DNA of 64,000 nt, taken from contig NZ_CP119677.1 of assembly GCF_029318685.1 (NCBI RefSeq), positions 1,302,001 to 1,366,000 on the forward strand, read 5' to 3'. Both the position numbers and the translations under genes were made by a program. Each line of letters begins with the position of its first letter. The stretch's first letter is position 1. Source of the DNA: Ruminiclostridium papyrosolvens DSM 2782. Lineage in GTDB: Bacteria > Bacillota > Clostridia > Acetivibrionales > DSM-1351. Below the pieces are notes generated by a model. The model was not told the DNA's origin, did no database searches, and was given only the letters and a program-made list of their open reading frames with translations. This document shows, one piece after another, positions 19,465 to 59,530 of the stretch.

Positions 19465-19547
19465 GACTTTACCTTTACTGATTCCTCTATTACAATTAAA
19501 TAAAACTAAATTATGCAAAAGTTATGAAAGGAAGAAGTAGGTCAGTT

Positions 19548-23885: not shown

Positions 23886-23899
23886 AAAATAAACTCCTC

Positions 23900-24877
23900 T
23901 TAGGCTTTAACCTGAAACAGATTATAAAGTTCATCTTTTTTTAAGTTTTTTCCGATAATACACAAGCTCCCTGTGTAATTGGCTTTTGTGTTTTTTATAT
24001 CAAATTCTCCGGGAACATAATCAAACTGAACCCATTTATTCTGAGCTAACTGCAGTATACCCTTAGCCCTTAATATTGCTCCGAAAAGCTTTTCATTTTC
24101 CAGAGCCTTAATTTTTGTATTTAATTCTTTTTCCTCAAATATTTTAGGTGTTTCTATTCCCCAGACATCAAAGACCTCGCTTGCACTGTGATTATGGGAG
24201 TGTTCATGGTGACAACCGCATTTACAGTCTTTGTGATGAACATGTGTGTCAGTTAGTTGATGTACTAAGGAAACCGATGTATCCTGCTCAGCTACAGATA
24301 TGATATGCTCTGAAGGAAGAGCTTCCCAAGGTGTTGTTATAATATTTGCACTAGGATTTGATTCACGAATAGAAGCTGCAATAGCTTCCAGCTTCTTGTT
24401 ATCTACCTTCTGAGACCTGCTTAAAATAATAGTTTTGGCATGATTAATCTGGTTTTCAAAGAATTCACCAAAGTTTAATTTATACATTTGGTACTTTAAT
24501 GCATCTACAACGGCTATTAGCATGTTTATTGTTAATATTTCTTGTAGTTTTGGTGTATCGCAAGCTTTTATAACATCCGACAATTTACCTACCCCTGAAG
24601 GCTCAATAATAATCCTGTCAGGCGTATATTTCATAATGACTTCTTGGATTGCTCTGGTAAAGTCTCCGACAAGGGTACAGCAAATGCAGCCGGAATTAAT
24701 TTCCCTGACTTCGATGCCGCTATTTTTAAGAACACTGCCATCAATACCCACTTCTCCAAATTCGTTTTCAATTATCACAACTTTTTCAGTATGTAATTTT
24801 TCTTCCAGCATCTTTTTTATAAGTGTGGTTTTGCCTGCACCTAAAAACCCTGAAATTATATCAACTTTTGATTTCAT
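23900..24877 (-). CDS. CobW-family GTP-binding metallochaperone
   Basis: A 325-residue COG0523 protein. Walker A is GFLGAGKTTLIKK, the metal motif is NSGCICCTL (CxCC), and IIIEPSGVGKL follows. A His/Cys-rich insert (residues about 210-232, HHKDCKCGCHHEHSHNH) points to zinc, cobalt or nickel binding. Such proteins deliver metals in a GTP-dependent way, often under zinc limitation. First gene of a three-gene minus-strand operon with a large palindrome upstream at 24995. Confidence 0.93.
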   Translation of the reverse strand: MKSKVDIISGFLGAGKTTLIKKMLEEKLHTEKVVIIENEFGEVGIDGSVLKNSGIEVREINSGCICCTLVGDFTRAIQEVIMKYTPDRIIIEPSGVGKLSDVIKACDTPKLQEILTINMLIAVVDALKYQMYKLNFGEFFENQINHAKTIILSRSQKVDNKKLEAIAASIRESNPSANIITTPWEALPSEHIISVAEQDTSVSLVHQLTDTHVHHKDCKCGCHHEHSHNHSASEVFDVWGIETPKIFEEKELNTKIKALENEKLFGAILRAKGILQLAQNKWVQFDYVPGEFDIKNTKANYTGSLCIIGKNLKKDELYNLFQVKA

Positions 24878-29719: not shown

Positions 29720-30145
29720 CTATTGAGACATGGCGATATTTGTCACTCCATTAACGACTTCTCCCATATTATTCATTTGATTACACATTATTTCAATATT
29801 ATCAGTAGAGAGCGCTGAAATAACTGTAAAGGCTGTACGTTTAGCTACATTATGGGGTAAAAGAAAATATTTTTCAAAATGGTGACATACTATTTGATAA
29901 TATTGACTGTATTGAGATGCTATAGCTTTTCCTTCTTCCATCAGAAAAACAGAACCAACCTTAGTTTTTTTGATTAACTTCATAGCACATAGTGTTTGCA
30001 GCATGGTGTGAACACTTGGCTTTGATATGCCGAGATTTTTTGCAATATCCACACATCTGATTCCTGTATTACATATGTCAAGATGATATATGGTAATCAG
30101 ATATTTGATTTGAGAGGCAGTTAATGTTTGCTTTTTTTTAGTCAC
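29720..30145 (-). CDS. DtxR/MntR-family metal-dependent regulator
   Basis: A 141-residue protein with the N-terminal winged helix of DtxR/MntR regulators (QIKYLITIYHL, then CVDIAKNLGISKPSVHTMLQTLC) and a short dimerisation part with HH and His/Cys residues that could bind iron or manganese. It starts with GTG after GGAGGT. It ends the minus-strand feoA-feoA-feoB unit, so it likely senses iron and represses the feo promoters through the GTTAG-N6-CTAAC boxes. This link is an inference from location. Confidence 0.85.
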   Translation of the reverse strand: MTKKKQTLTASQIKYLITIYHLDICNTGIRCVDIAKNLGISKPSVHTMLQTLCAMKLIKKTKVGSVFLMEEGKAIASQYSQYYQIVCHHFEKYFLLPHNVAKRTAFTVISALSTDNIEIMCNQMNNMGEVVNGVTNIAMSQ

Positions 30146-30233
30146 TATTTACCTCCGAATAAGAGTGCTTTCTACTTTTTTTATGACAGATGTCATTGAG
30201 TGGGCAGCTTAAACACTCGCAGCCGCAGGAGGA
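30138..30233 (-). pseudogene. Possible remnant of a FeoB-associated Cys-rich protein
   Basis: Between feoB and the regulator, one frame reads SSCGCECLSCPLNDICHKK after a stop codon. The spacing of six cysteines resembles the C-terminus of FeoB-associated Cys-rich membrane proteins such as the one at 35772. No start codon or membrane helix precedes it, though AAGGAGG stands about 20 bases upstream. It may be a decayed gene or chance. Confidence 0.35.
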
Positions 30234-30283
30234 TTATATAGTTTTTCCTCCTTACGGCTTAGGGTTTAAGCTTTAACATAGTC

Positions 30284-32698
30284 TTATGCTCTTATATTTG
30301 CTTTGTTTTTCAAGGTGTTGGGATCTTTATAAGGTTTAAGCAACATATACAGCATCAGTGTAACAAGGATAAATGCAGCAATTGCACCGATTATGCTGCC
30401 GTGACCTGTGAAAAGTGTTCCCAACTGATAGATAATAAGTGATACCACGTAGGCAAAAACGCACTGATAACTTATAGCAAAGAATGTCCATTTTGCACTG
30501 TTCATCTCCCGTTTGATAGCTCCGATAGCTGCGAAACATGGAGCACACAAAAGATTGAATACAAGGAAGGAATAGGCAGCAAGAGGAGTAAATACTTCAC
30601 GCATGTTGGTCCATATCTGCCAGCCGTTTTCAGCTACTTCATCAAAGCCGCCGAATAGTACACCAAAAGTACCTACAACATTTTCTTTTGCGATAAGTCC
30701 TGTTATTGAGGCAACTGCACCTTGCCAGTGACCCCAGCCGAGAGGTTTAAATATCCATGCAATTGCGGAACCGATGGCGGCAAGGATACTCTTATTCATA
30801 TCGACCATGCCAAAAGAACCGTTTTTCCAGCCGAAGTTAGAGGTGAACCAAACGAAGATAGTAGCAAGCAGAATAATTGTTCCGGCCTTTTTAATAAAGG
30901 ACCAACCACGTTCCCACATGGAACGTAATAAATTTCCAACAGTCGGTAAGTGGTAGGCGGGAAGTTCCATAACAAATGGGGCAGGGTCTCCTCTGAACAT
31001 TGTCATCTTTTTCAGCATGATACCTGAAAAGATAATAGCAGCAATACCAACAAAGTAAGCACTTGGAGCAACCCACCATGCACCTCCAAATAATGCACCT
31101 GCAATAAGAGCAATGATTGGGAGCTTTGCACCACAGGGGATGAAAGTAGTTGTAATTATGGTCATTTTACGGTCTCGGTCATTCTCAATTGTTCGGGAAG
31201 CCATGATACCCGGAACACCGCATCCTGTGCCGATGAGCATTGGTATAAAAGATTTTCCTGAAAGACCGAATTTCCTGAAAATTCTGTCCATAACAAAAGC
31301 AATACGTGCCATATATCCGCATGCTTCAAGGAAGGCAAGTAAGAGGAATAGAACCAGCATCTGGGGAACAAAGCCAAGAACTGAACCAACACCTGCAACA
31401 ATACCATTCAGTATAAGTCCCTGTAACCAGTCGGCACAGTTTATACTTTCCAGCCAGTCCCCCAGCAATTTTGGAATACCGGGAACCCACACTCCGTAAC
31501 TGGCCGGTTCGGGTTCTTCCATTGCGGCTACAGACATATATTTCTCATATGTAACCGGAATTTTTTCTTCAACCTTACCGTCATCATCATAAATATAGGC
31601 GGTTGTTGTTAAATCCTTTGCTTTATCGGCTTGAAGGCCGGAATCTTTTGCAGCGGACTCAAATGCACTCTTGATTGCGCCGGGCTCAGCATATTCTTCA
31701 ACAGCTTGTTCATATGCCGAAGAGCCTACTCCCAACAGGCGCCAGCCGTCACTGAATAAACCGTCGTTGACCCAATTTGTAGCCCATGTACCTACAGTAG
31801 TAATAGAAAGAAAATACACTATAAACATGATGGTGCCAAAAATTGGAAGAGCTGCCCAGCGATTAGTTACAACCTTATCTATTTTGTCCGAGGTTGAAAG
31901 CTTTCCGGCATTCTTTTTCTTGTAGCAGCCCTTGAGTATGGATGCTATATAGATATATCTCTCGTTGGTAATTATGCTTTCAGAGTCATCATCCAATTCT
32001 GCCTCCGCCGCTTTAATATCTTGCTCAATGTGGCTGAATACTGATTTGTCAAGGTTAAGCTGAGCCAACACCTTTTCATCACGCTCAAAAATCTTAATAG
32101 CATACCATCTCTGCTGCTCGGCAGGCATATTGTGTACCGCAGCTTCCTCAATATGGGCAAGGGCATGCTCAACAACGCCGTTAAAGCTATGCATCGGAAC
32201 AGTCTTTGTTGATTTAGCTGCCTCTATGGTTGCCTCAGCCGCTTCCATAATCCCGGTGCCTTTAAGAGCCGAAATTTCAACAACCTTACAGCCAAGCTGA
32301 CGGGAAAGTTCTCCCACGTTAATCTTGTCACCGTTTTTATTTATGACATCCATCATATTTATTGCAACTACCACCGGTATACCAAGCTCAGTTAATTGGG
32401 TGGTTAGATAAAGGTTACGCTCAAGGTTGGTACCGTCTATAATGTTCAGTATAGCGTCGGGGCGTTCCTTTATAAGATAATTACGTGCCACTACTTCCTC
32501 CAGTGTATACGGTGACAGAGAGTAGATACCCGGTAAATCCATAATTATTACATCATTATGCTTTTTTAGCTTACCTTCTTTTTTCTCAACAGTTACACCG
32601 GGCCAGTTTCCCACGAACTGATTGGAACCTGTCAATGCATTGAACAGAGTTGTTTTACCACAATTCGGATTGCCTGCAAGTGCAATCTTAATTCCCAT
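30284..32698 (-). CDS. feoB: Ferrous iron transporter FeoB (locus 1)
   Basis: An 804-residue Fe2+ transporter. The G domain has Walker A GNPNCGKTTLFNALTG, DLPGIYSLSPY and a guanine-binding NMMD; about ten membrane helices follow with the two Gate motifs, LIGTGCGVPGIMASRT being one. ATG 32698 is chosen because GGAGGAG lies just upstream and GIKIALAGNPN is the normal start; a longer version would begin 48 bases earlier. Compared with locus 2 (668 residues) it has an extra soluble segment between membrane helices. Confidence 0.97.
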   Translation of the reverse strand: MGIKIALAGNPNCGKTTLFNALTGSNQFVGNWPGVTVEKKEGKLKKHNDVIIMDLPGIYSLSPYTLEEVVARNYLIKERPDAILNIIDGTNLERNLYLTTQLTELGIPVVVAINMMDVINKNGDKINVGELSRQLGCKVVEISALKGTGIMEAAEATIEAAKSTKTVPMHSFNGVVEHALAHIEEAAVHNMPAEQQRWYAIKIFERDEKVLAQLNLDKSVFSHIEQDIKAAEAELDDDSESIITNERYIYIASILKGCYKKKNAGKLSTSDKIDKVVTNRWAALPIFGTIMFIVYFLSITTVGTWATNWVNDGLFSDGWRLLGVGSSAYEQAVEEYAEPGAIKSAFESAAKDSGLQADKAKDLTTTAYIYDDDGKVEEKIPVTYEKYMSVAAMEEPEPASYGVWVPGIPKLLGDWLESINCADWLQGLILNGIVAGVGSVLGFVPQMLVLFLLLAFLEACGYMARIAFVMDRIFRKFGLSGKSFIPMLIGTGCGVPGIMASRTIENDRDRKMTIITTTFIPCGAKLPIIALIAGALFGGAWWVAPSAYFVGIAAIIFSGIMLKKMTMFRGDPAPFVMELPAYHLPTVGNLLRSMWERGWSFIKKAGTIILLATIFVWFTSNFGWKNGSFGMVDMNKSILAAIGSAIAWIFKPLGWGHWQGAVASITGLIAKENVVGTFGVLFGGFDEVAENGWQIWTNMREVFTPLAAYSFLVFNLLCAPCFAAIGAIKREMNSAKWTFFAISYQCVFAYVVSLIIYQLGTLFTGHGSIIGAIAAFILVTLMLYMLLKPYKDPNTLKNKANIRA

Positions 32699-32719
32699 GT
32701 TATGCTCCTCCTTTTTTAT

Positions 32720-32735
32720 GTTAGCGTCTGCTAAC
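32720..32735. promoter_or_regulatory. GTTAG-N6-CTAAC box before feoB (locus 1)
   Basis: GTTAGCGTCTGCTAAC lies in the gap between feoA and feoB, 22 bases before the feoB start, so feoB may have its own regulated start or the box may act as a roadblock. Confidence 0.6.
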
Positions 32736-32772
32736 CGTGTTTTCAAAAAAAATAGGGTATACCCTAAAAAAC

Positions 32773-32994
32773 TTACTCAACTTCAATCATTTCCGCATCG
32801 GATTTGCGGATGGAAAGTTCGTACCCTCTAACATTGATTTCAACCGGATCTCCAAGAGGTGCTACCTTACGAATATGAACGTCAACACCTTTGGTAATAC
32901 CCATATCCATGATTCGACGTTTAAGTGCACCTTCACCGTGGAGCTTTACAACTTTAAGAGTTTCTCCGACCTTTGCCTGTTTCAGTGTTTTCAT
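32773..32994 (-). CDS. feoA: FeoA family protein (73 residues)
   Basis: A 73-residue SH3-like FeoA protein: ALKRRIMDMGITKGVDVHIRK and APLGDPVEINVRGYELSIRKSDA are the family hallmarks. FeoA is thought to bind FeoB and modulate its GTPase or transport activity in the cytoplasm. GGAGG precedes its ATG. It resembles the plus-strand FeoA at 33513 more than its neighbour at 33027, suggesting duplication between the two loci. Confidence 0.94.
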   Translation of the reverse strand: MKTLKQAKVGETLKVVKLHGEGALKRRIMDMGITKGVDVHIRKVAPLGDPVEINVRGYELSIRKSDAEMIEVE

Positions 32995-33026
32995 ATTTAT
33001 ATCCTCCTTACATAAAATACGGATAA

Positions 33027-33239
33027 CTAAATCATTATTTTAGAAGCCATTTCCTTACTGATTGCTACACGAGCTTCCTTTACATTAACTATTACATTTC
33101 CTCCAATGGTAGAAATGATAGTTACATTCCCACCAGGGACAAACCCAAGATTCTCAAGATGTTTTTTTACTTCAGGATTTCCGCCGACTTTTTTTATCAA
33201 ATTTTCTTCTCCGGCATTTGCTAATGTTAACGGCATCAT
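33027..33239 (-). CDS. feoA: FeoA family protein (70 residues)
   Basis: A 70-residue FeoA-domain protein (MPLTLANAGEEN, VKKHLENLGFVPGGNVTIIS, GNVIVNVKEARVAISKEMA). It belongs to the second, more divergent FeoA type often found together with a normal FeoA in Firmicutes. First gene of the minus-strand feo operon. Confidence 0.92.
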   Translation of the reverse strand: MMPLTLANAGEENLIKKVGGNPEVKKHLENLGFVPGGNVTIISTIGGNVIVNVKEARVAISKEMASKIMI

Positions 33240-33271
33240 ATGTCATCCTTTCTTATTCACTTATTACTTTA

Positions 33272-33287
33272 GTTAGCTTCAACTAAC
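33272..33287. promoter_or_regulatory. GTTAG-N6-CTAAC box in the feo locus 1 leader
   Basis: GTTAGCTTCAACTAAC lies downstream of the minus-strand feo promoter, within the likely 5' untranslated region, 33 bases from the first start codon. Confidence 0.65.
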
Positions 33288-33305
33288 TAAAGCACTTAAA
33301 AAATG

Positions 33306-33321
33306 GTTAGTCGATGCTAAC
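33306..33321. promoter_or_regulatory. GTTAG-N6-CTAAC box at the feo locus 1 start site
   Basis: GTTAGTCGATGCTAAC, extended to GGTTAG/CTAACC, sits just downstream of the minus-strand -10 and would cover the transcription start. Confidence 0.7.
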
Positions 33322-33328
33322 CGAATAT

Positions 33329-33357
33329 AGAATACTGCTTTATGATTTATTTGTCAA
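33329..33357 (-). promoter_or_regulatory. Promoter of feo locus 1
   Basis: On the minus strand: TTGACA, 17-base spacer, TATTCT. Two GTTAG-N6-CTAAC boxes follow at once. Confidence 0.78.
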
Positions 33358-33421
33358 TAGGTTTATTTAAAATTTTAACGCCGTGGCATGAGTTTTAAGT
33401 TTTTATCATTCCAAAATGATA

Positions 33422-33450
33422 TTGACAATCTTTATCAGTTAGGTTATACT
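33422..33450 (+). promoter_or_regulatory. Promoter of feo locus 2
   Basis: TTGACA, 17-base spacer, TATACT. The -10 lies inside the palindromic box at 33438, so regulator binding would block polymerase directly. Confidence 0.82.
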
Positions 33451-33453
33451 AAC
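33438..33453. promoter_or_regulatory. GTTAG-N6-CTAAC box overlapping the feo locus 2 -10
   Basis: GTTAGGTTATACTAAC. Together with the next box it forms one near-perfect 39-base palindrome. TTAGGTTA resembles half of the known DtxR/IdeR consensus. Confidence 0.75.
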
Positions 33454-33460
33454 TTTGCAA

Positions 33461-33476
33461 GTTAGCATAACCTAAC
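33461..33476. promoter_or_regulatory. GTTAG-N6-CTAAC box downstream of the feo locus 2 start
   Basis: GTTAGCATAACCTAAC, the mirror partner of the box at 33438; centre-to-centre spacing is 23 bases, about two helical turns. Confidence 0.75.
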
Positions 33477-33512
33477 TGGTTTGTTAATATATTAAAAAAG
33501 AGGTTACTATAT

Positions 33513-33749
33513 ATGACACTGAATAAGTTAATTACAGGTACGGCTGCGGTTATAACAAAAGTCGGTGGTGAAGGTGTTTTACGCTGCAGATTGCTTGATA
33601 TGGGAATCATACCTAAAACCAAAGTGGTCAAAACCAAGGTTGCTCCTTTAGGTGATCCTATAGAAATACGGATTCGGGATTATACTCTTACAATTCGTAT
33701 GGAGGATGCTGAGAAGATTGAAGTTAAGCAGTTAGTCGGGGAGGACTGA
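33513..33749 (+). CDS. feoA: FeoA family protein (locus 2)
   Basis: A 78-residue FeoA: TGTAAVITKVGGEG, LRCRLLDMGIIPKTKVV and APLGDPIEIRIRDYTLTIR. It precedes feoB by 6 bases in a feoA-feoB-Cys-rich gene unit. Its nearest relative in the window is the FeoA at 32773. Confidence 0.94.
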   Translation: MTLNKLITGTAAVITKVGGEGVLRCRLLDMGIIPKTKVVKTKVAPLGDPIEIRIRDYTLTIRMEDAEKIEVKQLVGED

Positions 33750-33755
33750 TGGTAT

Positions 33756-35762
33756 ATGATATTTGCATTGGTAGGAAATCAAAACTGCGGTAAAACAACT
33801 CTGTTTAATCAGCTGACAGGATCAAATCAGCATGTCGGAAATTTCCCCGGTGTGACTGTGGACCAAAAAGTAGGCGAGATACATAATCAAAAGAACGTAT
33901 CAGTGGTGGACTTACCGGGGATATATTCTATTCGTCCGTATACCAACGAAGAAATCGTAACTCGGGATTTTATTCTTAACAATAAACCTGATGGTATTAT
34001 AAATATTGTCGACGCTACTAATATTGAACGAAATCTGTACCTGACGTTACAGCTTATCGAAATGGGCATACCTATGGTACTGGCCTTAAACATGATGGAT
34101 GAGGTACGAGGAAATGGAGGAACAATTGATATCGGCAAAATGTCAGGTAAACTGGGGATACCAATTGTGCCTATAAGTGCTTCTAAAAACGAAGGAATAG
34201 ATGAACTGATAGACAAAATTATATCTACTTCAAAAAACAAGATATACCCCAACAAAATTGATTTTTGCGAGTCAGGTCCTGTTCACAGGTGCATACATGC
34301 CGTATCGCATCTTGTAGAAGATCACGCAGAAAACTGTGGGATGTCATCCAGATTTGCAGCAACTAAAATAATTGAAGGCGATTCAGATATTATTTCAAAG
34401 TTGGAACTTAATCAAAATGAACTTGAAATGATAGAGCACAGTATTGTTGAGATGGAAACTGAACATGATATGGACAGAAATGCTGCTCTTGCTGATATGA
34501 GATATAGTTTTATTGAGAAAGTGTGTGAAAACACAGTTGTAAAGTGCAAGGAAAGCAAGGAACATGTCAGAAGTGTTAAGATAGATAACGTTCTAACCAA
34601 TAAATTCCTGGCTATCCCTATTTTTCTGGGAATTATGTTCACCATCTTCTGGCTTACCTTCAATATAATCGGAGCTTCATTAAGCGACCTTCTTGCTTTG
34701 GGTATTACTGCTCTGACAGATATTGTCGATGCCGGATTGACCAAATACGGCATAAACCCCATAGTTCATAGTCTTGTAATAGATGGAGTATTTGCAGGAG
34801 TGGGAAGTGTTTTGAGTTTTCTGCCACTGATTGTTACATTGTTTTTCTTCCTCTCTATACTTGAGGATACGGGGTATATGGCACGAGTAGCGTTTGTTAT
34901 GGATAAGCTTATGCGTAAAATAGGCTTGTCAGGCAGAAGCTTTGTACCGATGCTTATTGGTTTTGGGTGCACTGTTCCGGCAGTAATGGCAACACGAACA
35001 CTGCCATCTGACAGAGATAGAAAAATGACTATAATGCTGACACCGTTTATGAGCTGTTCTGCTAAGATTCCAATATATGCAGTATTTACCGCTGCTTTTT
35101 TTGCCCGTTATCAGGCACTTGTGATGATTGGACTTTATGTCACCGGTATATTAACAGGAATTCTGGTAGCACTTATTTCCAACAGAACTGCATTTCGTGG
35201 AAAACCTGTTCCTTTTGTTATGGAACTTCCGAATTACCGTTTCCCTTCTGCCAAGAGTGTAGTGCTTCTAATGTGGGATAAGGCAAGAGACTTTATACAG
35301 AAGGCATTTACTGTTATATTTATTGCAACTGTAATTATATGGTTTTTACAGACCTTTGACAGCAGGCTGAATGTAGTTTCAGACAGCGCAAACAGTCTTC
35401 TTGCCATGGTAGGAAAGCTGATTGCACCGATTTTTACTCCTTTGGGGTTTGATGACTGGCGTGTTTCTACTGCACTGATTACGGGATTTACTGCCAAAGA
35501 GGCAGTTATAAGTACCATGAGCGTATTAACAGGTACAACCATTGATAACTTGAACACTACTTTGAGTTCATTATTTTCACCACTTACGGCAGTGAGCTTT
35601 TTGGTATTTACATTGCTGTATACACCGTGTATTGCAGCTGTAGCAGCAATCAGAAGAGAGCTGAACTCACGGCTTCAGACGGTTGCAATAGTTGTGTTAC
35701 AATGCGGTGTTGCCTGGGGAGCAGCATTTATAATATATAAACTGTGCAGTCTGATTTTTTGA
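33756..35762 (+). CDS. feoB: Ferrous iron transporter FeoB (locus 2)
   Basis: A 668-residue FeoB. The G domain has GNQNCGKTTLFNQLTG, DLPGIYSIRPYT and NMMD; the membrane part has LIGFGCTVPAVMATRT and LTPFMSCSAKIP gate segments. It is about 130 residues shorter than locus 1 FeoB, close to the compact clostridial length. Both likely import Fe2+; they may differ in affinity or metal. Confidence 0.96.
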   Translation: MIFALVGNQNCGKTTLFNQLTGSNQHVGNFPGVTVDQKVGEIHNQKNVSVVDLPGIYSIRPYTNEEIVTRDFILNNKPDGIINIVDATNIERNLYLTLQLIEMGIPMVLALNMMDEVRGNGGTIDIGKMSGKLGIPIVPISASKNEGIDELIDKIISTSKNKIYPNKIDFCESGPVHRCIHAVSHLVEDHAENCGMSSRFAATKIIEGDSDIISKLELNQNELEMIEHSIVEMETEHDMDRNAALADMRYSFIEKVCENTVVKCKESKEHVRSVKIDNVLTNKFLAIPIFLGIMFTIFWLTFNIIGASLSDLLALGITALTDIVDAGLTKYGINPIVHSLVIDGVFAGVGSVLSFLPLIVTLFFFLSILEDTGYMARVAFVMDKLMRKIGLSGRSFVPMLIGFGCTVPAVMATRTLPSDRDRKMTIMLTPFMSCSAKIPIYAVFTAAFFARYQALVMIGLYVTGILTGILVALISNRTAFRGKPVPFVMELPNYRFPSAKSVVLLMWDKARDFIQKAFTVIFIATVIIWFLQTFDSRLNVVSDSANSLLAMVGKLIAPIFTPLGFDDWRVSTALITGFTAKEAVISTMSVLTGTTIDNLNTTLSSLFSPLTAVSFLVFTLLYTPCIAAVAAIRRELNSRLQTVAIVVLQCGVAWGAAFIIYKLCSLIF

Positions 35763-35981: not shown

Positions 35982-36010
35982 TTGACTTTTTTGTTAAAAT
36001 CATGTAATAT
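35982..36010 (+). promoter_or_regulatory. Promoter of leader RNA 1 (Nik-like operon)
   Basis: TTGACT, 17-base spacer, TAATAT. The hexamers, spacer length and several flanking bases are the same as in the promoter at 57603. Confidence 0.8.
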
Positions 36011-36016
36011 ACCAAA

Positions 36017-36169
36017 CAGAACATGTCATGAAGATATGGAATCGGGCAAGGAGCCTTAAAAAAATATTATGTTTGATGTTAGATATAAACTAGCTTAAAG
36101 CTAAAGTGAAAAGATGCCAAGAAGGTATGAAGTTATGCAGAAGCATATTCATTATTTCTTGGCTTTTTT
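36017..36169 (+). promoter_or_regulatory. Structured leader RNA 1 with terminator: candidate riboswitch
   Basis: The leader begins with a 6-bp stem CATGTC-ATGAA-GATATG (36022-36038), then GAAT and a small hairpin GGC-AAGGA-GCC (36045-36055). After a variable arm comes AGCTTAAAG, and then a terminator (36116-36169): GCCAAGAA pairs with TTCTTGGC, inner stems ATGAA/TTCAT and ATGC/GCAT, then T6. The leader at 57638 has the same parts in the same order, with compensatory changes in the first stem. Control by conditional termination is likely; the ligand is unknown. Confidence 0.72.
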
Positions 36170-36204: not shown

Positions 36205-37803
36205 ATGAACTTTAGAAAGTTTGCAGCAGCATTAATTATTTGTGCCATTACTGTTACCGGGCTTTCAGCATGTGGTGGCAATAAAGAAACATCTTCAAGA
36301 GAAAATAGAATTAAAAATAGCGAAATAGTTGTAGCGATAGGTTCGGAGCCCGAGTCGGGGTTTGATTCCACTACGGGGGGGCATGGCTCGATAACAAAGG
36401 TGCTTTTTTCCACACTATTCAAAAGAGACAAGAAGCTAGGATGGGAAAACGATTTGGCTGCCGGATACAAAGTATCCGATGACAAGCTGACGTGGACGGT
36501 TACTCTCAGAGCTGCCAAGTTTACTGACGGAACTTCAGTAAAAGCTGAGGACGTTGTTTATACATATGAAACAGCTAAAAAAGCAGGTGCTGATATTGAT
36601 TTAACTATGATTGAAAGCATTAAGGAAGTTGATGCTAAGACGGTTGCCTTTAAATTAACCAGACCTTATTCACCTTTTCTTGAGAGGCTTGCTTACCTTG
36701 GAATAGTACCAAAACATGCACATGATGACAGCTTCAAGGACAATCCGGTTGGTTCGGGCCCATACAAGTTTCTACAATGGGATAAGGGACAACAGGTTAT
36801 TGTAGAAGCAAACGATAAGTATTACGGAGAAACTCCCAAAATCAAAAAGCTTACAATGGTGTTCATGGAAACAGATGCAGCTTTTGCAGCTGTCAAAAAT
36901 GGGGATGTGGATGCAGCACAAATAAATGGTACTTTGGCTAAACAAAACGTTGAGGGCACTCAAATAGTTGATATACCAAGCATTGAATGTTATGGAATTT
37001 GCTTTCCCATGATACCCAATGAGGGAAAGAAAGCAAAAGACGGTGCTGTAATGGGTAATAATGTTACCAGTGACATTTCTATCAGAAAAGCACTTAATAC
37101 TGCGGTTGACAGAGAAAAAATAGTAAAAGGCGTGTTGAACGGCTATGGCAGCGTTTCTACAACCGGACTTGAAAAGATGCCGTGGCTAAATGAGGAAACT
37201 GTGTTAACAGCTAAGGAATATGCCAATGTGGAGGCCGCAAAAAAAATACTGGCTGAAGGCGGTTGGTCAGACAGCGATAAGGATGGCATAGCAGAAAAAG
37301 ACGGAAAGAAAGCAGCCTTTGATTTACTTTATACTGATGGTGTATACAGACAGGAAATGGCCCTTGAGTTTGTCAATGTGGCAAAAGAAATAGGAATTCA
37401 AGTTAATTTAAAAAAGACCACATGGGATACTATTTTGCCTGACATCCATCAGCAAGCGGTATTCTATGGCTTCGGCTCAGGTGATCCGTCCGAATTGTAT
37501 AACCTCTATTACGGCGGAATTGCCGGAGGCTCAGTAGCCTGGGATAATTCCGGCTGCTATGACAATACAGTAGTTAATGAAAACATAGACAAGGCACTTG
37601 CTGCTAAAAATGAAGCAGAAGCTATTACATACTGGAAAGCACTGCAATATAAGGCTTCAGCTAAGGAAGATGCTCCTTATTGCTGGCTTGCAAATGCAAA
37701 CCACGTATATCTTGCTGCTAAAGGTTTTTCTTTTGGCAATCCAACAGTACAGCCTCATGGAGGAAGAATATTCGATAATGTAGCTGAGTGGTCATGGCAG
37801 TAA
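36205..37803 (+). CDS. Nickel/peptide-type ABC transporter substrate-binding lipoprotein (NikA-like)
   Basis: A 532-residue family 5 solute-binding lipoprotein (lipobox LSAC). EIVVAIGSEPESGFDSTTG, WTVTLRAAKFTDGTSVKAEDVVYTYE (in parts) and VGSGPYKF are typical of the NikA/DppA/OppA family. First of five genes with the order binding protein, two permeases, two ATPases. The family covers both peptides and nickel; nickel or another metal complex is favoured by the metal context, the neighbouring cbiMQO operon and the small His-rich protein at the end. Preceded by structured leader RNA 1. Confidence 0.85.
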   Translation: MNFRKFAAALIICAITVTGLSACGGNKETSSRENRIKNSEIVVAIGSEPESGFDSTTGGHGSITKVLFSTLFKRDKKLGWENDLAAGYKVSDDKLTWTVTLRAAKFTDGTSVKAEDVVYTYETAKKAGADIDLTMIESIKEVDAKTVAFKLTRPYSPFLERLAYLGIVPKHAHDDSFKDNPVGSGPYKFLQWDKGQQVIVEANDKYYGETPKIKKLTMVFMETDAAFAAVKNGDVDAAQINGTLAKQNVEGTQIVDIPSIECYGICFPMIPNEGKKAKDGAVMGNNVTSDISIRKALNTAVDREKIVKGVLNGYGSVSTTGLEKMPWLNEETVLTAKEYANVEAAKKILAEGGWSDSDKDGIAEKDGKKAAFDLLYTDGVYRQEMALEFVNVAKEIGIQVNLKKTTWDTILPDIHQQAVFYGFGSGDPSELYNLYYGGIAGGSVAWDNSGCYDNTVVNENIDKALAAKNEAEAITYWKALQYKASAKEDAPYCWLANANHVYLAAKGFSFGNPTVQPHGGRIFDNVAEWSWQ

Positions 37804-37841
37804 AGGTTATTTACTGACAGCTTGGACAGAGGAGGAGAAAA

Positions 37842-38834
37842 GTGGCAAAAAGTAATAGTATAGGAAGGTTCCTGACAAAAAAGATTATAAAATTCATTAC
37901 ACTTTTGGTAGCGGTTTGTCTGGTTACCTTTATACTTATGGAATTATCTCCCATAGATCCGGTTACAGCTTATGTTGGTGCAAGTACAAAAGTAGGAGCA
38001 GAGCAAAGAGCCTTGATAGCAGAGCATTGGGGGCTGAACAAGCCCCCTGTTGAACGCTTCTTGGCATGGTTTTCGTCAATACTTCAGGGGGACTGGGGAA
38101 CGTCTATGATTTATAGACGCCCTGTTCTTGAGGTGATAGGACAAAAGTTTTTGTCTTCACTTGCTCTAATGGGTATAGCTTGGATTTTATCAGGGGTTGT
38201 GGGTTTTGTTCTGGGAATAGTAGCAGGCGCAAATGAAGGAAAAACAATAGACAAGATTATTCATACCTATTGCTATATATTAATCTCAACGCCTACTTTC
38301 TGGCTGGGAATATTATTCGTTATGATATTTGCTGTCTCACTGGGATGGTTTCCTGTTGCATTAAGCGTTCCAATTGGAACTGTTGCAAAGAATGTAAGCT
38401 TAGCTGATAAAATCAGCCATATTATTTTACCTGCCCTTACACTCAGCCTGATAGGAATATCTAATATATGTATGCATACAAGACAGAAGGTTATAGAGAT
38501 ATTTACAACGGATTATGTATTATTTGCAAAAGCACGTGGTGAGAACAAGAAAAGTATCATATTCAATCATGTTGTAAAAAATGTTTCATTGCCTGCAATC
38601 ACTCTTCAATTTCTGTCTTTTAGCGAATTGTTCGGAGGAGCAATATTTGTTGAACAGGTGTTTTCTTATCCCGGACTTGGACGAGCCGTGGTTCAGGCTG
38701 GTTTGAAGGGTGATTTACCACTGCTTATGGGGATTGTTATTATCAGCCTGTTATTTGTGTATACAGGCAATACTATAGCAGATTTATTATACAGAGTAAT
38801 TGATCCTAGAATCCGGGAGGCGCAGAGGGGTTGA
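37842..38834 (+). CDS. ABC transporter permease, NikB/DppB-like
   Basis: A 330-residue inner-membrane permease with six helices. MELSPIDPVTAYVGAST, then FWLGILFVMIFAVSLGWFP and AKARGENKKSIIFNHVVKN (the EAA-type loop that contacts the ATPase) are typical of DppB/NikB. Starts with GTG after GGAGGAG. Overlaps the next permease gene. Confidence 0.9.
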   Translation: MAKSNSIGRFLTKKIIKFITLLVAVCLVTFILMELSPIDPVTAYVGASTKVGAEQRALIAEHWGLNKPPVERFLAWFSSILQGDWGTSMIYRRPVLEVIGQKFLSSLALMGIAWILSGVVGFVLGIVAGANEGKTIDKIIHTYCYILISTPTFWLGILFVMIFAVSLGWFPVALSVPIGTVAKNVSLADKISHIILPALTLSLIGISNICMHTRQKVIEIFTTDYVLFAKARGENKKSIIFNHVVKNVSLPAITLQFLSFSELFGGAIFVEQVFSYPGLGRAVVQAGLKGDLPLLMGIVIISLLFVYTGNTIADLLYRVIDPRIREAQRG

Positions 38835-39700
38835 TGGAAAGAACAGACAATATTGAAATTACAGATAAGTCGGCACGGTTAACATTTGGAGTAAGAGAAC
38901 GGATTATTGCATCCACAGCTGCTTTTGGAATACTCCTGGCAGTGGTGCTGATTGCAGGAAATCTGATAAATACAGACTCCCTGAGAGTAAATTTAGGAAA
39001 CATATTTGCTTCGCCAAATACGGAGCATCCTTTTGGTACTGACTGGGTAGGCAGAGATATGCTGCTTAGAACAGTAAAGGGATTAAGTTTGAGTATGAAA
39101 ATTGGTATGTTATGCTCTCTAAGCAGCGGATTTATTGCGTTGCTTCTGGGGGTAGCAGGACCAATGTTGGGCGGCAAAGTGGATTATGTCATCTCGTGGC
39201 TCATTGACTTAGTATTATCAGTACCTCATACATTAGTTGTAATATTGATTTCAATAGCTGTGGGTGGAGGACTAAAAGGTATTGTAATAGGAGTTACCCT
39301 TACACACTGGACTTCCCTGACCCGTGTAATCAGGGCGGAAGTAATGCAAATAAGGGAACTTGAATATACAAAGATTTCAAGACAATTTGGCAAAAGCAGT
39401 TTTTATATAGCCAAGGAACATATTTTGCCACACGTAATCCCACAGCTTGTGGTTGGAATTGTTTTGGTGTTTCCACATGCAATTTTACATGAAGCATCAA
39501 TAACCTTCTTAGGCTTCGGATTACCTCCCCATGAACCTGCAATAGGTGTCATACTGTCGGAATCAATGAAGTATCTGACCTCAGGAAAATGGTGGTTGGC
39601 GTTTTTTCCGGGACTTAGCTTGGTTTTGATATCCATGATGGTAGACTGCATAGGCAAGAATATAGAAAAGCTGATAAATCCAAAGACTGCGTACAAGTAG
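38834..39700 (+). CDS. ABC transporter permease, NikC/DppC-like
   Basis: A 288-residue permease: HPFGTDWVGRDMLLRTVKG is the NikC/DppC N-terminal signature, with WLIDLVLSVPHTLVVILISIA and an EAA-like loop around ISRQFGKSSFYIAKEHILPH. The ATG at 38834 overlaps the stop of the preceding gene. It pairs with the NikB-like permease to form the membrane channel. Confidence 0.9.
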   Translation: MERTDNIEITDKSARLTFGVRERIIASTAAFGILLAVVLIAGNLINTDSLRVNLGNIFASPNTEHPFGTDWVGRDMLLRTVKGLSLSMKIGMLCSLSSGFIALLLGVAGPMLGGKVDYVISWLIDLVLSVPHTLVVILISIAVGGGLKGIVIGVTLTHWTSLTRVIRAEVMQIRELEYTKISRQFGKSSFYIAKEHILPHVIPQLVVGIVLVFPHAILHEASITFLGFGLPPHEPAIGVILSESMKYLTSGKWWLAFFPGLSLVLISMMVDCIGKNIEKLINPKTAYK

Positions 39701-39709
39701 GAGAATGAA

Positions 39710-40645
39710 ATGGATAAAAAACCGATTTTGCAGGTAAGCAATCTGGGAGTGTCTTTTTCACAATATACAAAGGGACTTCGAAGACAAAATTTAAAGGTAA
39801 TAACTAATCTTGATATAGAATTGTACCAGGGCAAAATATTGGCAGTAGTCGGTTCCAGCGGTTCGGGGAAAAGCCTGCTGGCTCATGCCATACTTGATAT
39901 TTTGCCGGACAATGCCGTTACAGAAGGGGAAATAACCTATAAAGGCAAGCTTCTGACTAAAGAAGAACAGAAAAAGTTACGGGGTAAAGAAATAGTTCTC
40001 ATACCACAATCTGTAAACTACCTGGACCCATTACAGCAGGTAGGAAAACAGGTAGGTATATCTGTAGCGGATAAGAAAAAGAAAGATAGTATTGTTTCAA
40101 ATTTATTCAGTAAATATGGACTTGGAAAGAAAGTTGAAAGCTATTATCCTTTTCAATTATCGGGAGGAATGGTCAGAAAAGTGCTGCTGTCTACGGCACT
40201 GGCCTCTGATGCAAAAGTAATTATTGCAGATGAACCGACACCGGGGCTTGATGAAGAGGCATTAAGTGAAGTTCTAAAGGATTTCAGAGAGTTTGCTGAT
40301 AAGGGCTGTGCAATACTTATGATTACTCATGATATACAGGCAGCTCTTAAAATTGCAGACAGTATTGCAATTTTTTATGCAGGGACAACTCTGGAAGTTG
40401 CAAGCGTATCTGATTTTGACAGAACAGGAGAAAAGCTGAGACACCCCTACACAAAGGCATTGAACAGAGCGTTGCCAAATAATGAGTTTGTGCCGTTGGA
40501 AGGTTCTCAGCCCTTGCCCAACGAGCTTCCAAACTGCTGCCTTTTTTGGGACAGATGCCAGAAAAAAGGAGTAAGGTGCGGCGAAGAAAAACCGGATTTT
40601 CAGGAAATCCGAGGTGGAAAGGTAAGATGCTTTTATGCGACTTAG
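39710..40645 (+). CDS. ABC transporter ATP-binding protein, NikD/DppD-like
   Basis: A 311-residue ATPase with VGSSGSGKSLLAHAILD (Walker A), QLSGGMVRKVLLSTALA (signature, slightly altered from LSGGxxQR) and VIIADEPTPGLD (Walker B). The C-terminal CCLFWDRCQKKGVRC segment is the Cys-rich tail of the oligopeptide/nickel ATPase group, which may hold an Fe-S cluster. Overlaps the NikE-like gene by 11 bases. Confidence 0.9.
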   Translation: MDKKPILQVSNLGVSFSQYTKGLRRQNLKVITNLDIELYQGKILAVVGSSGSGKSLLAHAILDILPDNAVTEGEITYKGKLLTKEEQKKLRGKEIVLIPQSVNYLDPLQQVGKQVGISVADKKKKDSIVSNLFSKYGLGKKVESYYPFQLSGGMVRKVLLSTALASDAKVIIADEPTPGLDEEALSEVLKDFREFADKGCAILMITHDIQAALKIADSIAIFYAGTTLEVASVSDFDRTGEKLRHPYTKALNRALPNNEFVPLEGSQPLPNELPNCCLFWDRCQKKGVRCGEEKPDFQEIRGGKVRCFYAT

Positions 40646-41237
40646 AGCAGAGAAAATAAATTTTAAATATAACAAGGAAAAAAATATTCTAAAGGATGTT
40701 GATTTTTATGTTGAGAGTGGCGAAATCGTGGGCTTGGTAGCACCCAGCGGTTATGGAAAAACCACTCTTGCAAAAATTCTGGCAGGATATGAAAAGCCTC
40801 AAAGCGGAAAGGTTATATTGGAAGGCTGCCAACGCAAAAAAAGAGATTACAATCCTGTACAATTGATTTTCCAGCATCCTGAGAGAGCTGTAAATCCCTT
40901 GTGGAAAATGAGCAAAATCCTTAGTGAGTCAGGTGAACCCTCCAAAGAATTAATGGATGCTATGGGAATTAAAGAAGGATGGCTGAACAGATGGCCTACA
41001 GAATTATCCGGGGGAGAACTTCAAAGGTTCTGTGTACTTCGTGTATTAAATCAAAAGACCAAATTTATAATTGCCGATGAGATGACTACAATGCTCGATG
41101 CAATTACACAGGCACAGATATGGAGAATTGTTCTTAATTATGCCGGAGAAAATAATATTGGTGTAGTTGTTATAAGCCATGAACAAGCTTTAGTTGCCAA
41201 AACTTGTGAGAGAGTAATTGATTTAGGAAGGAGGTGA
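40635..41237 (+). CDS. ABC transporter ATP-binding protein, NikE/DppF-like
   Basis: A 200-residue ATPase, APSGYGKTTLAKIL as Walker A, LIFQHPERAVNPLW as Q loop, LSGGELQRFCVLRVL as signature and FIIADEMTTMLD as Walker B (EP replaced by EM). It lacks the long C-terminal part of typical OppF and is nearer NikE size. Second ATPase of the five-gene importer. Confidence 0.88.
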   Translation: MRLRAEKINFKYNKEKNILKDVDFYVESGEIVGLVAPSGYGKTTLAKILAGYEKPQSGKVILEGCQRKKRDYNPVQLIFQHPERAVNPLWKMSKILSESGEPSKELMDAMGIKEGWLNRWPTELSGGELQRFCVLRVLNQKTKFIIADEMTTMLDAITQAQIWRIVLNYAGENNIGVVVISHEQALVAKTCERVIDLGRR

Positions 41238-41622: not shown

Positions 41623-42624
41623 ATGCATATTCCGGATAATTATTTAAGTCCGTCAACCTGTGCGGCTATGGGGGCAGCTATGGTTCCGGTGTGGACAATA
41701 GCAGTAAAGAAGGTGAAAGAGGAAGTATCAAAAGTAAAAATACCATTGTTGGGAATAGGAGCAGCTTTTTCATTTCTAATGATGATGTTTAATGTACCGC
41801 TCCCCGGAGGAACAACAGGTCATGCAGTAGGAGGAACCTTGATTGCCATACTGCTGGGACCATTTTCAGCCTGTATTTCGGTTACAGTCGCATTGCTTAT
41901 TCAGGCATTAATGTTTGGCGATGGAGGAATACTCGCCTTTGGTGCAAATTGTTTTAATATGGCCTTTGTGCTTCCATTTATCGGTTATTTTATTTATAAA
42001 TTCATTAAAGACAGGGTAAAGTCGGAAAAAGGCGAGTATATCGGAATTATACTTGCTTCATATTTTGGTATAAATATTGCGGCTTTATGTGCGGCAATAG
42101 AATTTGGCATACAGCCGGTATTATTCAAAAATCCGGCAGGTCAGCCTTTGTACAGCCCGTATGCTTTAGGAGTTTCAATACCTGCAATGACAATACCCCA
42201 TCTGCTGGTTGCCGGTATAGTGGAAGCCTTATTTACTGTTGTAATATTTGCATTCATTAAGAAGGTATCTCCCGGTACAATATATGAAGGAGCTAAAAAA
42301 AAGACAAAAGCTATTTATGGCTTGATAATTGCATTAATCTGCCTTACGCCCCTTGGACTTCTTGCTACGGGAACAGCTTGGGGTGAATGGGGTGCGGACG
42401 AAATAAAGGATGTATTAACCGGAGGAAAATCCCTTGGATTTGTACCTGAGGGAATGAAAAACGGGTTTAATTTTGAGTCAATTATGCCAGACTATACTAT
42501 AGGTGGGCTGCCTGAGATTGCCGGATATATTTTATCTGCTGTAGCAGGTGTTGCAATCTTGATTATTTTGTTTAAAATTATAGGTAGTATTAAGAAAAGC
42601 AAACCCGGGAGCAATAATGAATAA
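41623..42624 (+). CDS. CbiM/NikM-type ECF metal transporter with PDGLE-like C-terminus
   Basis: A 333-residue S component for Co2+ or Ni2+. The N-terminus MHIPDNYLSPSTC has the Met1-His2 metal-binding start of the family; six to seven helices follow (NVPLPGGTTGHAVGGTL is characteristic). The last 90 residues form a CbiN/PDGLE-like domain (extracellular segment, then a final helix), so CbiM and CbiN functions are fused as in NikMN. Co2+ versus Ni2+ cannot be settled from sequence. Next genes encode T and ATPase parts. Confidence 0.93.
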   Translation: MHIPDNYLSPSTCAAMGAAMVPVWTIAVKKVKEEVSKVKIPLLGIGAAFSFLMMMFNVPLPGGTTGHAVGGTLIAILLGPFSACISVTVALLIQALMFGDGGILAFGANCFNMAFVLPFIGYFIYKFIKDRVKSEKGEYIGIILASYFGINIAALCAAIEFGIQPVLFKNPAGQPLYSPYALGVSIPAMTIPHLLVAGIVEALFTVVIFAFIKKVSPGTIYEGAKKKTKAIYGLIIALICLTPLGLLATGTAWGEWGADEIKDVLTGGKSLGFVPEGMKNGFNFESIMPDYTIGGLPEIAGYILSAVAGVAILIILFKIIGSIKKSKPGSNNE

Positions 42625-43438
42625 TACACAGGACTTAGCAGGCGGAAATATGCCTGAATGGTTATTAACTGAAAATGTATATGTACCTAAATCTGATAAG
42701 GATACTTTTATAAACAAAAGTATCCTGTCTTTGTTGAGCCTGATTTCAAGAATCAGAAGTCAAGGGGGATATAATAAAGAAACGCTCAAAGTAAGTGCAG
42801 TTTTGAAAGTCGCATTAACTTTTTTTCTTATATTATTTTTATCACTATCACGCAGCTTCACATTTATAGTAATTGTAAACGTATATCTTCTGTCAGTATT
42901 AAGCATGATGAGGGCGGAAGATATTATTAAAATTCTGAAGGCTGGTTTTGTTGTTGCTGCATTTACATTTGTAATACTATTGCCGGCAGCTTTTTGGGGA
43001 AACTATTACAGCATAAAAATGATTACTCCCAAAGTTTTTGCAACAGTTATGGCTGTTAATATTATTTCACACTCAACGAAATGGAACAATATCACTAACG
43101 CACTGAAGGCTTTTTTCATACCGGACATATTTATACTGGTTTTGGATATAACAATAAAATATATTCTTCTTTTGGGAGAATTTTCACTGAATATGCTATA
43201 TGCGTTAAAACTCAGGTCAGTAGGTAAAAACAGCAGCAAATACACGGCATTATCGGGAATTGTGGGGATAATGTTCATTAAATCAAAAGAAATGTCCGAA
43301 GATATGTACAGTGCTATGGAGTGCAGGGGCTTCACCGGAGAATACAAGGTCAATAGAAGGTTTAAAATCACTTTTTATGATATTATATATATTGCAATTA
43401 ATACTATAATAGCTTTTCTATTTTTCTATATAAAATGA
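42617..43438 (+). CDS. CbiQ/NikQ-type energy-coupling transmembrane protein
   Basis: A 273-residue EcfT-family protein with about five helices and the coupling motif segments MECRGFTGEYK and LKLRSVG-like ALKLRSVGKNSS. It couples the ATPase to the CbiM-like component. Overlaps cbiM by 8 bases. Confidence 0.9.
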   Translation: MNNTQDLAGGNMPEWLLTENVYVPKSDKDTFINKSILSLLSLISRIRSQGGYNKETLKVSAVLKVALTFFLILFLSLSRSFTFIVIVNVYLLSVLSMMRAEDIIKILKAGFVVAAFTFVILLPAAFWGNYYSIKMITPKVFATVMAVNIISHSTKWNNITNALKAFFIPDIFILVLDITIKYILLLGEFSLNMLYALKLRSVGKNSSKYTALSGIVGIMFIKSKEMSEDMYSAMECRGFTGEYKVNRRFKITFYDIIYIAINTIIAFLFFYIK

Positions 43439-43488
43439 AATGTATAAATCAGTTTGGTATATATCCAGTAGCAGAGAGGTAAATTCTA

Positions 43489-44280
43489 ATGATTGAGTTA
43501 TCCAAGGTAACATATTCATATTCGGGTATCCCGGCATTAAATGATATAAGCTTAAATATAACAAAGGGTGAAGCAATAGCCTTGATGGGCCCCAACGGAA
43601 GCGGTAAATCCACTGTATTAAAGCTTATCAACGGTATAATATCTCCTAACAGAGGCAGTTACAGGTTCAATTCTGAAGAAATAACCCATAAAAAGCTTCA
43701 GGATGCAGAGTTTGCAAAAAGTTTTCACCAGAAAATTGGTTTTGTATTTCAGAACTCTGACACTCAGCTTTTTTGTGCAGATGTATATGATGAAATAGCC
43801 TTTGGCCCACGACAAATGGGCTTGAGCGAGAGTGAAACTGACAAAAGGGTCAATGATTGTCTGGATTTATTGAATATTCAGGATTTTAAGCACAGACCAC
43901 CATATCAATTAAGCGGAGGAGAAAAGCGAAAGGTTGCTGTTGCTTGTGTGCTGTCACTGAATCCGGAAGTACTTGTACTGGATGAACCCATGAACGGCCT
44001 TGACCCAAGAACTCAGAGATGGCTGGTAGAATTCCTTGTAAAGCTGAATAAAGCAGGCAAAACATTAATTACATCAACTCATAATCTTGAACTTGTACAG
44101 GAAATTTCGTCCAGAGCCATATTATTTGATGAAAATCATAAAATAGCGGCAGATATGCCAACCGCTGAACTTTTGGAGAATATTGATTTGTTAAAAAGTG
44201 TAAATCTTGTTGATGAATATTATCACAGTCACGACGGGAAAGACCACAGGCATTTCCATATTCATAATCACAGCTTATAA
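43489..44280 (+). CDS. CbiO/NikO-type ATPase with His-rich tail
   Basis: A 263-residue ATPase: GPNGSGKSTVLKLI, FVFQNSDTQLFCADVYDEIAFGP (in parts), LSGGEKRKVAVACVL and VLDEPMNGLD. The C-terminus YYHSHDGKDHRHFHIHNHS holds nine histidines, a likely nickel or cobalt binding tail not needed for ATPase function. Last gene of the cbiMQO unit; a terminator follows. Confidence 0.93.
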   Translation: MIELSKVTYSYSGIPALNDISLNITKGEAIALMGPNGSGKSTVLKLINGIISPNRGSYRFNSEEITHKKLQDAEFAKSFHQKIGFVFQNSDTQLFCADVYDEIAFGPRQMGLSESETDKRVNDCLDLLNIQDFKHRPPYQLSGGEKRKVAVACVLSLNPEVLVLDEPMNGLDPRTQRWLVEFLVKLNKAGKTLITSTHNLELVQEISSRAILFDENHKIAADMPTAELLENIDLLKSVNLVDEYYHSHDGKDHRHFHIHNHSL

Positions 44281-47663: not shown

Positions 47664-47802
47664 TTATATGAACCTATACTACATCTATTAGTAAAAAATA
47701 TCAAAAAAGATAAAATTTACATGACAAATTGCACGTAATATTATATAGTTGATATTAGAAACTATATGTGAGAAACTAAATATGTAAAAACTAAATATGA
47801 AA

Positions 47803-47982
47803 AACAGGTGTCGGTTGTGTTGAAAATACTGAACATGAACCGGTGAAAAGGGAAGTTGGGTTTAAAATCCCACGCGGTCCCGCCGCTGTAAAAGAGGAGT
47901 TTCTTTCAAAGTACCACTGGAAACGGGAAGGTGAAAGGAATAATGATGCTTGAGCCAGAAGACCTGCCTGTTATTTTGTACC
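47803..47982 (+). promoter_or_regulatory. Cobalamin riboswitch
   Basis: A full B12-box aptamer: closing stem ACAGG (47804) with CCTGT (47977), AAAAGGGAAGTTGGG, TCCCACGCGGTCCCGCCGCTGTAA, GTACCACTGG-AAACGGGAAGG, and GAGCCAGAAGACCTGCC. No terminator lies directly after, so control of the yezD-like gene is probably at translation (GGGGGTG at 48002 is within reach). Adenosyl- or other cobalamin should lower expression of the downstream gene or genes. Confidence 0.95.
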
Positions 47983-48015
47983 ATAGACTCTACGAACGAT
48001 AGGGGGTGTACTTAA

Positions 48016-57602: not shown

Positions 57603-57631
57603 TTGACTTTTGTGTAAAAATAATGTAATAT
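57603..57631 (+). promoter_or_regulatory. Promoter of leader RNA 2 (FmdE operon)
   Basis: TTGACT, 17-base spacer, TAATAT, matching the promoter at 35982 in both hexamers, spacing and several flanking bases. Confidence 0.8.
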
Positions 57632-58375: not shown

Positions 58376-58408
58376 GTTAGTTAAATAACATAAGTTATGA
58401 GGGGTAAA

Positions 58409-59527: not shown

Positions 59528-59530
59528 GTC

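Follow-up and report, generated by a model that had tools for sequence, protein, structure and literature searches.

In the guanidine-II riboswitch (mini-ykkC), tandem ACGR loops dock on each other. ANTAR-domain proteins, according to PMC3369931, recognise a pair of small hairpins whose loops resemble each other and of which the second overlaps the 5' arm of a terminator. Each loop is a hexanucleotide with A at position 1 and G at position 4; the linker of the eut targets measures 5-12 nt, and induction is impaired at 3 or 14 nt (PMC3369931). We analysed a window of 64,000 nucleotides from the genome of Ruminiclostridium papyrosolvens DSM 2782 (NZ_CP119677.1, positions 1,302,001 to 1,366,000), which contains two leader RNAs with a repeated loop, one copy of it within a terminator arm. 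By this arrangement, the leaders look more like a protein-bound tandem-hairpin antiterminator than a riboswitch.

Direct reading of the sequence confirmed the two leaders given in a preliminary description of the window, leader A at 36017-36169 and leader B at 57638-57811, both on the + strand. Predicted sigma-70-like promoters lie at 35982-36010 (TTGACT, 17 nt, TAATAT) for leader A and, as recognised from sequence and alignment with leader A, at 57603-57631 for leader B, the promoter being common to both. The first hairpin, P1, supported by fold and sequence, was found at 36022-36038 (CATGTC-ATGAA-GATATG) and 57642-57658 (CATGCT-ATGAA-AGCATG), and its pairing is indeed kept despite base changes in the arms (CATGTC/GATATG versus CATGCT/AGCATG). 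A lineage-specific middle hairpin follows, at 36045-36055 in leader A (GGC-AAGGA-GCC; fold and sequence) and at 57665-57675 in leader B (GGC-AAGTA-GCC; centroid fold and sequence). The second hairpin, P2, lies within the 5' arm of the terminator at 36114-36128 (AUGCC-AAGAA-GGUAU, supported by covariation in the family) and 57756-57770 (GUGCC-AAGAA-GGUAU, from sequence). A third, P3, is the terminator apex, with UAUGC-AGAA-GCAUA in both leaders (36134-36147 and 57776-57789; fold and sequence). The intrinsic terminators themselves extend over 36116-36169 (arms 36116-36124 and 36155-36163, U run 36164-36169; fold z = -4.9) and 57758-57811 (fold z = -4.5).

The alignment of leaders A and B (mean column identity of 83%) bore out the promoter, the 6-bp AUGAA hairpin, the GGC-AAGNA-GCC hairpin and the nearly identical terminator as shared parts; the AGCTTAAA element, also proposed as shared, is not conserved in a third copy, C. 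This copy lies upstream of the orthologous operon, whose substrate-binding protein (SBP) is 86% identical, in a genome of the same genus (G008), and there the GGC hairpin is replaced by a hairpin with an AGAA tetraloop. When leader A was used as a DNA query against its own genome, leader B was the sole strong second match (E 1.3e-24; next match, E 0.009), and two of the 11 genomes of the family, its own included, contained a DNA match. None of 200 shuffled sequences folded as stably as leader A, and one of 200 as stably as leader B. No AGCTTAAA element was seen in the wider family; this element, the middle GGC hairpin and small leader ORFs were set aside by eye as lineage-specific. The feature that recurs across Bacillota is the ANGAA-type loop: the preliminary description had noted AUGAA in P1 and had missed the ANGAA-type loops in the terminator 5' arm (GCC-AAGAA-GGU) and at its apex (UAUGC-AGAA-GCAUA).

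Leader A precedes a NikABCDE-like ABC operon (36205-41237, + strand) encoding an SBP_bac_5 protein, two permeases and two ATPases, after which come CbiM-PDGLE, CbiQ and an ATPase (41623-44280). Under leader B lies an operon (57842-62188, + strand) for FmdE, a Peripla_BP_2 SBP, a FecCD permease, an ATPase and a SAM methyltransferase, with a transporter of the siderophore/B12 type. The region from 36 to 62 kb looks like a cobalt/corrinoid island. A cobalamin riboswitch (Rfam, 98.5 bits) is located at 47789-47985, flanked on one side by a MetH-like gene and on the other by DUF4430 genes that are accompanied by a CbiQ/ECF transporter. Elsewhere in the window, 22287-24877 and 29720-35762 form a metal-rich neighbourhood with two genes of the CobW type, one of which is fused to an ArsP-like permease, and a pair of FeoB genes adjoined by an iron-dependent-repressor-like gene. 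A T-box leader at 19515-19745 precedes, at 19802, a gene for a tRNA synthetase of the tyrosyl/tryptophanyl type whose C-terminal domain is of the tyrosine type.

The leaders had been thought to belong to no known class, and in a covariance search against Rfam neither matched any family. At E-values up to 10, both returned only unrelated families, far below thresholds, one being PreQ1 on the other strand, and the elements of 11 further loci gave no match at E-values up to 5. In the literature searched, a scope that left out most subscription papers, there was no mention of DUF3842 (a protein family considered below), FmdE and riboswitch never occurred together, and nothing listed on nickel leaders or antitermination named a tandem-hairpin element with ANGAA loops. 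The leader family is apparently widespread and undescribed.

The core motif emerged from homologous operons. A protein search with the SBP of operon A gave matches at E < 1e-80 in 15 of the 391 genomes of the class, its own counted; from a scan of the collection with the same protein, the best 80 loci were kept and their upstream regions read. Upstream of homologous Nik-type operons, we observed a 5' hairpin with an ANGAA loop, followed by a terminator with the 5' arm CCANGAAGG, in sequences that were otherwise unrelated. In the window copies examined, CCANGAAGG is able to fold as the mini-hairpin P2 with an ANGAA loop. By script, 42 such terminators were counted in 41 loci, several of which overlap one another and represent the leaders of the window itself. 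In 40 loci, mainly from Bacilli and archaea, a stricter terminator pattern found none and a looser one found a single weak match (L105). At five loci with homologous operons (L036, L042, L044, L045, L046), a G/C tract was seen by eye in the place of the element; at L036 the gene beside it encodes a metal-sensitive repressor of the CsoR/RcnR type (PF02583), a sign that, in other genomes, metal control of this operon is achieved in a different way. At L050 and L052, upstream of a NikA-like gene, reading by eye revealed a variant leader outside the reach of the strict pattern, in which GAUAUC-AGGAA-GGUAUC is followed by an AGAA-loop hairpin; DUF3842 lies directly upstream.

A terminator pattern blind to the genes had matches in 31 of the 391 class genomes and 71 of the 398 phylum genomes, versus 7 of 391 and 7 of 398, respectively, for a reversed control pattern. 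Up to 15 matches were recorded per genome, overlapping ones being counted separately. Two genomes without a strict match have an element near DUF3842 (L286 in G079, L288 in G098), so the strict pattern undercounts carriers. A model of the whole leader, R1, with strict filters and at most 48 candidates scored per genome, recovered only the three close copies in 58 genomes of the order; its matches in distant leaders were weak (L015, E 0.004; L022, E 0.012). Some leaders contained several elements in a row: stacked terminators were observed at L163 and L202, and at L178, ahead of CbiM, two ANGAA hairpins with 6-bp stems lie 90 and 126 nt upstream.

The combined set of 132 elements includes false matches: two located inside apparent MurB genes (L123, L124) were dropped before this set, the loop-class count and the pentamer test were evaluated, and other false matches were left in. 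P2 is part of every element by definition. An ANGAA/NGAA hairpin of at least 5 bp was present within 150 nt upstream of 68 of the 132 elements and absent from 64, compared with a mean of 8.9 (maximum 11) for stretches drawn at random from these loci and with 39 of 886 other terminators. When the regions upstream of 68 terminators were searched for hairpins with stems of 5 bp or more and no loop was assumed, ANGAA pentaloops formed the largest class (29), the next class having 6 members. Upstream ANGAA pentamers were flanked by a stem of at least 5 bp in 30 of 150 cases; among 16 control pentamers, 15 gave 0 to 2.6%, the exception being AAGNA, which overlaps AAGAA (10 of 129). In an alignment of 27 P1 sequences, 72 cells exhibited a double-sided change, spread over all six pairs, and the covariation score was 1.19, versus 0.31 after shuffling and no more than 0.17 after sliding; the score of 1.19 is inflated because the rows were chosen for pairing. 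The weight is therefore carried by the loop-class count, the enrichment in 68 of 132 elements and the pentamer test. One locus, L017, was considered doubtful and left out of this alignment, but later looked genuine in view of its first gene, which by eye resembles a methyltransferase.

The flanks of P2 played no part in selecting the elements. The second pair outside CC..GG (n = 124) was A-U in 43, G-C in 24 and U-A in 21 cases, with 89 Watson-Crick pairs versus a permutation maximum of 57; the first pair reached 71 versus a maximum of 70, and the third, fourth and fifth were not above permutations, all of which leave the relatedness among sequences in. In the terminator arm, the single unconstrained base, N, was paired with the unconstrained base opposite in 118 of 123 cases (86.6 expected). 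Loop positions A1, G3, A4 and A5 were nearly fixed and the stems variable, the loop having been used in picking the rows, and 24 of 55 P3 loops contained NGAA. Since P2 sits within the terminator 5' arm, P2 and the terminator are mutually exclusive; the leaders thus combine, as an attenuator does, a terminator with an alternative structure backed by covariation, in the P2 flanks and in the terminator. Homologues beyond the two copies and covarying stems, for which the preliminary description had called, were therefore both found, and neither of the outcomes it had named as contrary, a strong Rfam match or a lack of covariation and homologues, was encountered.

The distance between P1 and P2 ranged from 5 to 220 nt over 28 leaders and was 78 and 100 nt in the window leaders. 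P1 was seemingly absent in one genome, G413, and in some others; it may be optional, or may have other loops, such as AUGUA and UAUGAA, which were seen by eye. G413 has many elements (loci L154, L155, L142, L152, L153) with no clear P1; P2 by itself is long there, as in L142 (UAAACC-AUGAA-GGUUUA).

Among the first genes behind the element in the class (31 genes of class matches and the window gene of operon B, NikA-like and doubtful genes being left out; n = 32), we found 11 ECF S-components, 6 CbiM, 5 FmdE (one being the window's), 4 methyltransferases and 2 Peripla_BP_2 proteins, as well as single cases of a permease, a radical SAM protein, a putative cobaltochelatase and a gene without a family. 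FmdE was thus recovered behind elements independently of operon B. The ECF S-components with a kinase-like neighbour may form an alpha-ribazole system. In the phylum, 44 of 61 listed references were retained after repeats and implausible short ORFs were left out, and the following counts apply among the matches listed, covering 25 of 46 families: 7 SBP_bac_5, 4 CbiM, 4 FmdE, 4 methyltransferases, 3 DUF3842, 3 ABC ATPases and 2 FecCD proteins, with single cases of CobN, ZnuA, Peripla_BP_2, a permease, DUF4198, DUF364 (heavy-metal chelation), FlpD, a flavin reductase and an [FeFe] hydrogenase. The hydrogenase gene stands under the element at L201, with an AGAA hairpin upstream, and would fit a nickel-sparing response. 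Given the theme of these first genes, operons A and B seem to be part of a wider regulon for nickel and cobalt. The view that the RNA module itself is the conserved unit ahead of non-homologous transport operons also held, as its homologues elsewhere precede other metal genes.

We propose that the leaders are probably transcription-attenuation elements of a nickel/cobalt regulon of many Bacillota, whose loops are bound in trans by a factor that causes antitermination on metal shortage. By default, the RNA would fold into the intrinsic terminator and the operon would be off. Alternatively, the terminator 5' arm would fold as P2 (NNCC-ANGAA-GGNN), which together with P1, and often with the apical P3, would present the ANGAA/NGAA loop two or three times over. 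Under nickel/cobalt shortage, these loops would be held together by a trans factor, most probably an RNA-binding protein in dimeric or oligomeric form, so that the terminator would be blocked and the uptake genes transcribed. Because P2 and the terminator share bases, the P2 loop is exposed only without the terminator. That a terminator should hide a conserved loop is best accounted for if this loop is recognised during read-through, along with P1 and perhaps P3. The position of the free loops leads us to infer that the loop-exposing state is ON. We also presume a protein as the factor and, as the logical signal for uptake genes, a shortage of metal. Repeated loops at variable spacing suit a dimeric or oligomeric protein.

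The preliminary description had favoured a riboswitch for a metal or metal cofactor, perhaps nickel. The genes do point to nickel/cobalt; the riboswitch part was left unsupported, with no compact conserved aptamer and with linkers of 5 to 220 nt. For a true riboswitch, two or three ANGAA loops would have to dock together and bind Ni2+, Co2+ or a metal-bound metabolite directly. The near-invariant loop on variable stems and the single theme among the downstream genes are compatible with this, as is the lack of a universal protein, ANTAR domains being absent from the carriers G086 and G197 and DUF3842 from G431 and G606. However, a conserved aptamer core was not seen, the linker is highly variable, and an aptamer that sequesters the terminator arm would turn uptake ON with ligand, which is odd for metal uptake. 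Moreover, loop position 2 is free, and Watson-Crick pairs alone therefore cannot hold two loops. We regard direct ligand binding as rather unlikely. It seems extremely improbable that leaders A and B merely arose when an ordinary promoter and terminator, without any regulatory role, were recently duplicated: their identity, and the fact that a DNA search of 11 family genomes found only copy C to be similar, would agree with such an event, but distant homologues share loops and not sequence, have covarying stems and stand ahead of other metal genes. It is the covariation and the control-corrected distribution that refute this explanation.

Binding of the two hairpins by ANTAR-domain proteins, as in the EutV/NasR/AmiR mechanism, would account for the logic of the leaders, in which two like-looped hairpins occur, the upstream one in 68 of 132 elements, and the second overlaps the terminator 5' arm. 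R. papyrosolvens has one ANTAR protein, a match was obtained in 10 of 13 genomes searched (9 above the cut-off), and the linker falls within 5-12 nt in 4 of 28 leaders. Nevertheless, it exceeds 12 nt in the other 24, the leader loops are pentaloops with G3, or NGAA, rather than hexanucleotides with A1 and G4, and the carriers G086 (with a UGAA hairpin as P1) and G197 (with no clear P1), at 99-100% completeness, gave no match. ANTAR proteins were accordingly rejected as the factor on the loop, usually the linker, and their absence from two carriers, and this mechanism appears very unlikely here.

For the trans factor of the attenuation mechanism preferred above, DUF3842, often found beside the nickel protein CooT, is the best-supported, though unproven, candidate. 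In the phylum, it was present in 64 of 71 pattern carriers versus 117 of 327 other genomes (odds ratio 16, p 7e-18, uncorrected for phylogeny). In the class, it was present in 29 of 31 pattern carriers versus 31 of 49 other genomes chosen for the search and, after curation, in 30 of 30 carriers versus 27 of 45 others; curation removed five carriers as false matches (G155, G198, G318, G356, G376), three of which have DUF3842, and added four whose elements had been seen in other loci (G001, G008, G118, G363). DUF3842 was also detected in 4 of the 7 genomes matched by the reversed control pattern and in all 11 members of the genus, in only 4 of which elements are known. It was absent from 7 of the 71 phylum carriers; in two or more of these, G431 and G606 among them, the elements appear real when read by eye. 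As noted, it was the first gene behind the element three times. An element was present in 8 of 40 DUF3842-centred regions of 6.4 kb, 28 of which came from carriers, and in 4 of 40 regions of about 3 kb, L278 and L215 being doubtful cases. In R. papyrosolvens, a CooT-like ORF adjoins DUF3842 (L249), and no ANGAA/NGAA hairpin lies within 330 nt of leader sequence of this pair. The predicted structure of DUF3842 is a plain alpha/beta fold with weak matches and no hint of RNA binding: two fold matches had E-values under 0.001 (FtsZ and the KdpD USP domain, TM about 0.5), and a profile search of solved structures gave nothing significant, ribosomal protein uL1 being the best (E 0.16).

As a special case of binding in trans, CooT, a small nickel-binding protein, could itself be the RNA-binding antiterminator, with DUF3842 as its partner. 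A sequence motif revealed CooT-like ORFs in 14 of 40 and 16 of 40 DUF3842-centred regions and beside elements at L024, L207, L214 and L233; Pfam confirmed the two that were tested, and a solved CooT structure matched the one tested. Against this, the motif was not detected next to DUF3842 in G086 (L250), and the role described for CooT is nickel insertion into CODH (PMC11247825). A role of CooT as the antiterminator itself is thus doubtful. More broadly, and still tentatively, DUF3842, with or through CooT, could represent a new antiterminator class that senses metal, binds RNA at tandem ANGAA hairpins and governs nickel/cobalt uptake, genes linked to corrinoids and even the switch to nickel-free [FeFe] hydrogenase across anaerobic Bacillota.

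Nickel and cobalt supply is important to acetogens, CO oxidisers and many other anaerobes, and a good share of their uptake operons for these metals seem to carry one RNA element that is absent from Rfam. If our proposal is true, it defines a regulon, suggests functions for DUF3842, FmdE and ECF S-components, adds a tandem-hairpin antitermination system distinct from that of ANTAR proteins and makes nickel sensing in these bacteria a direct bench question.

Compared with known systems, the leaders share with NiCo and cobalamin riboswitches the nickel/cobalt or corrinoid theme and control by a leader RNA, but matched neither in Rfam, whereas the true cobalamin riboswitch of the same window was detected. 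Like guanidine-II, they have tandem hairpins, one repeated short loop and a variable linker; they differ in the loop (ANGAA versus ACGR), in a second hairpin that is part of the terminator and in the lack of an Rfam match. CsrA and PyrR were also considered and set aside. Hairpins bound by CsrA/RsmA are repeated, have an A-N-G-x-A loop and are bound by a dimer, but with a GGA core in place of the GAA of most leader copies. The targets of ANTAR proteins (EutV, NasR, AmiR) resemble the leaders in serving several operons per genome, those of ANTAR proteins being nitrogen genes and those of the leaders metal genes.
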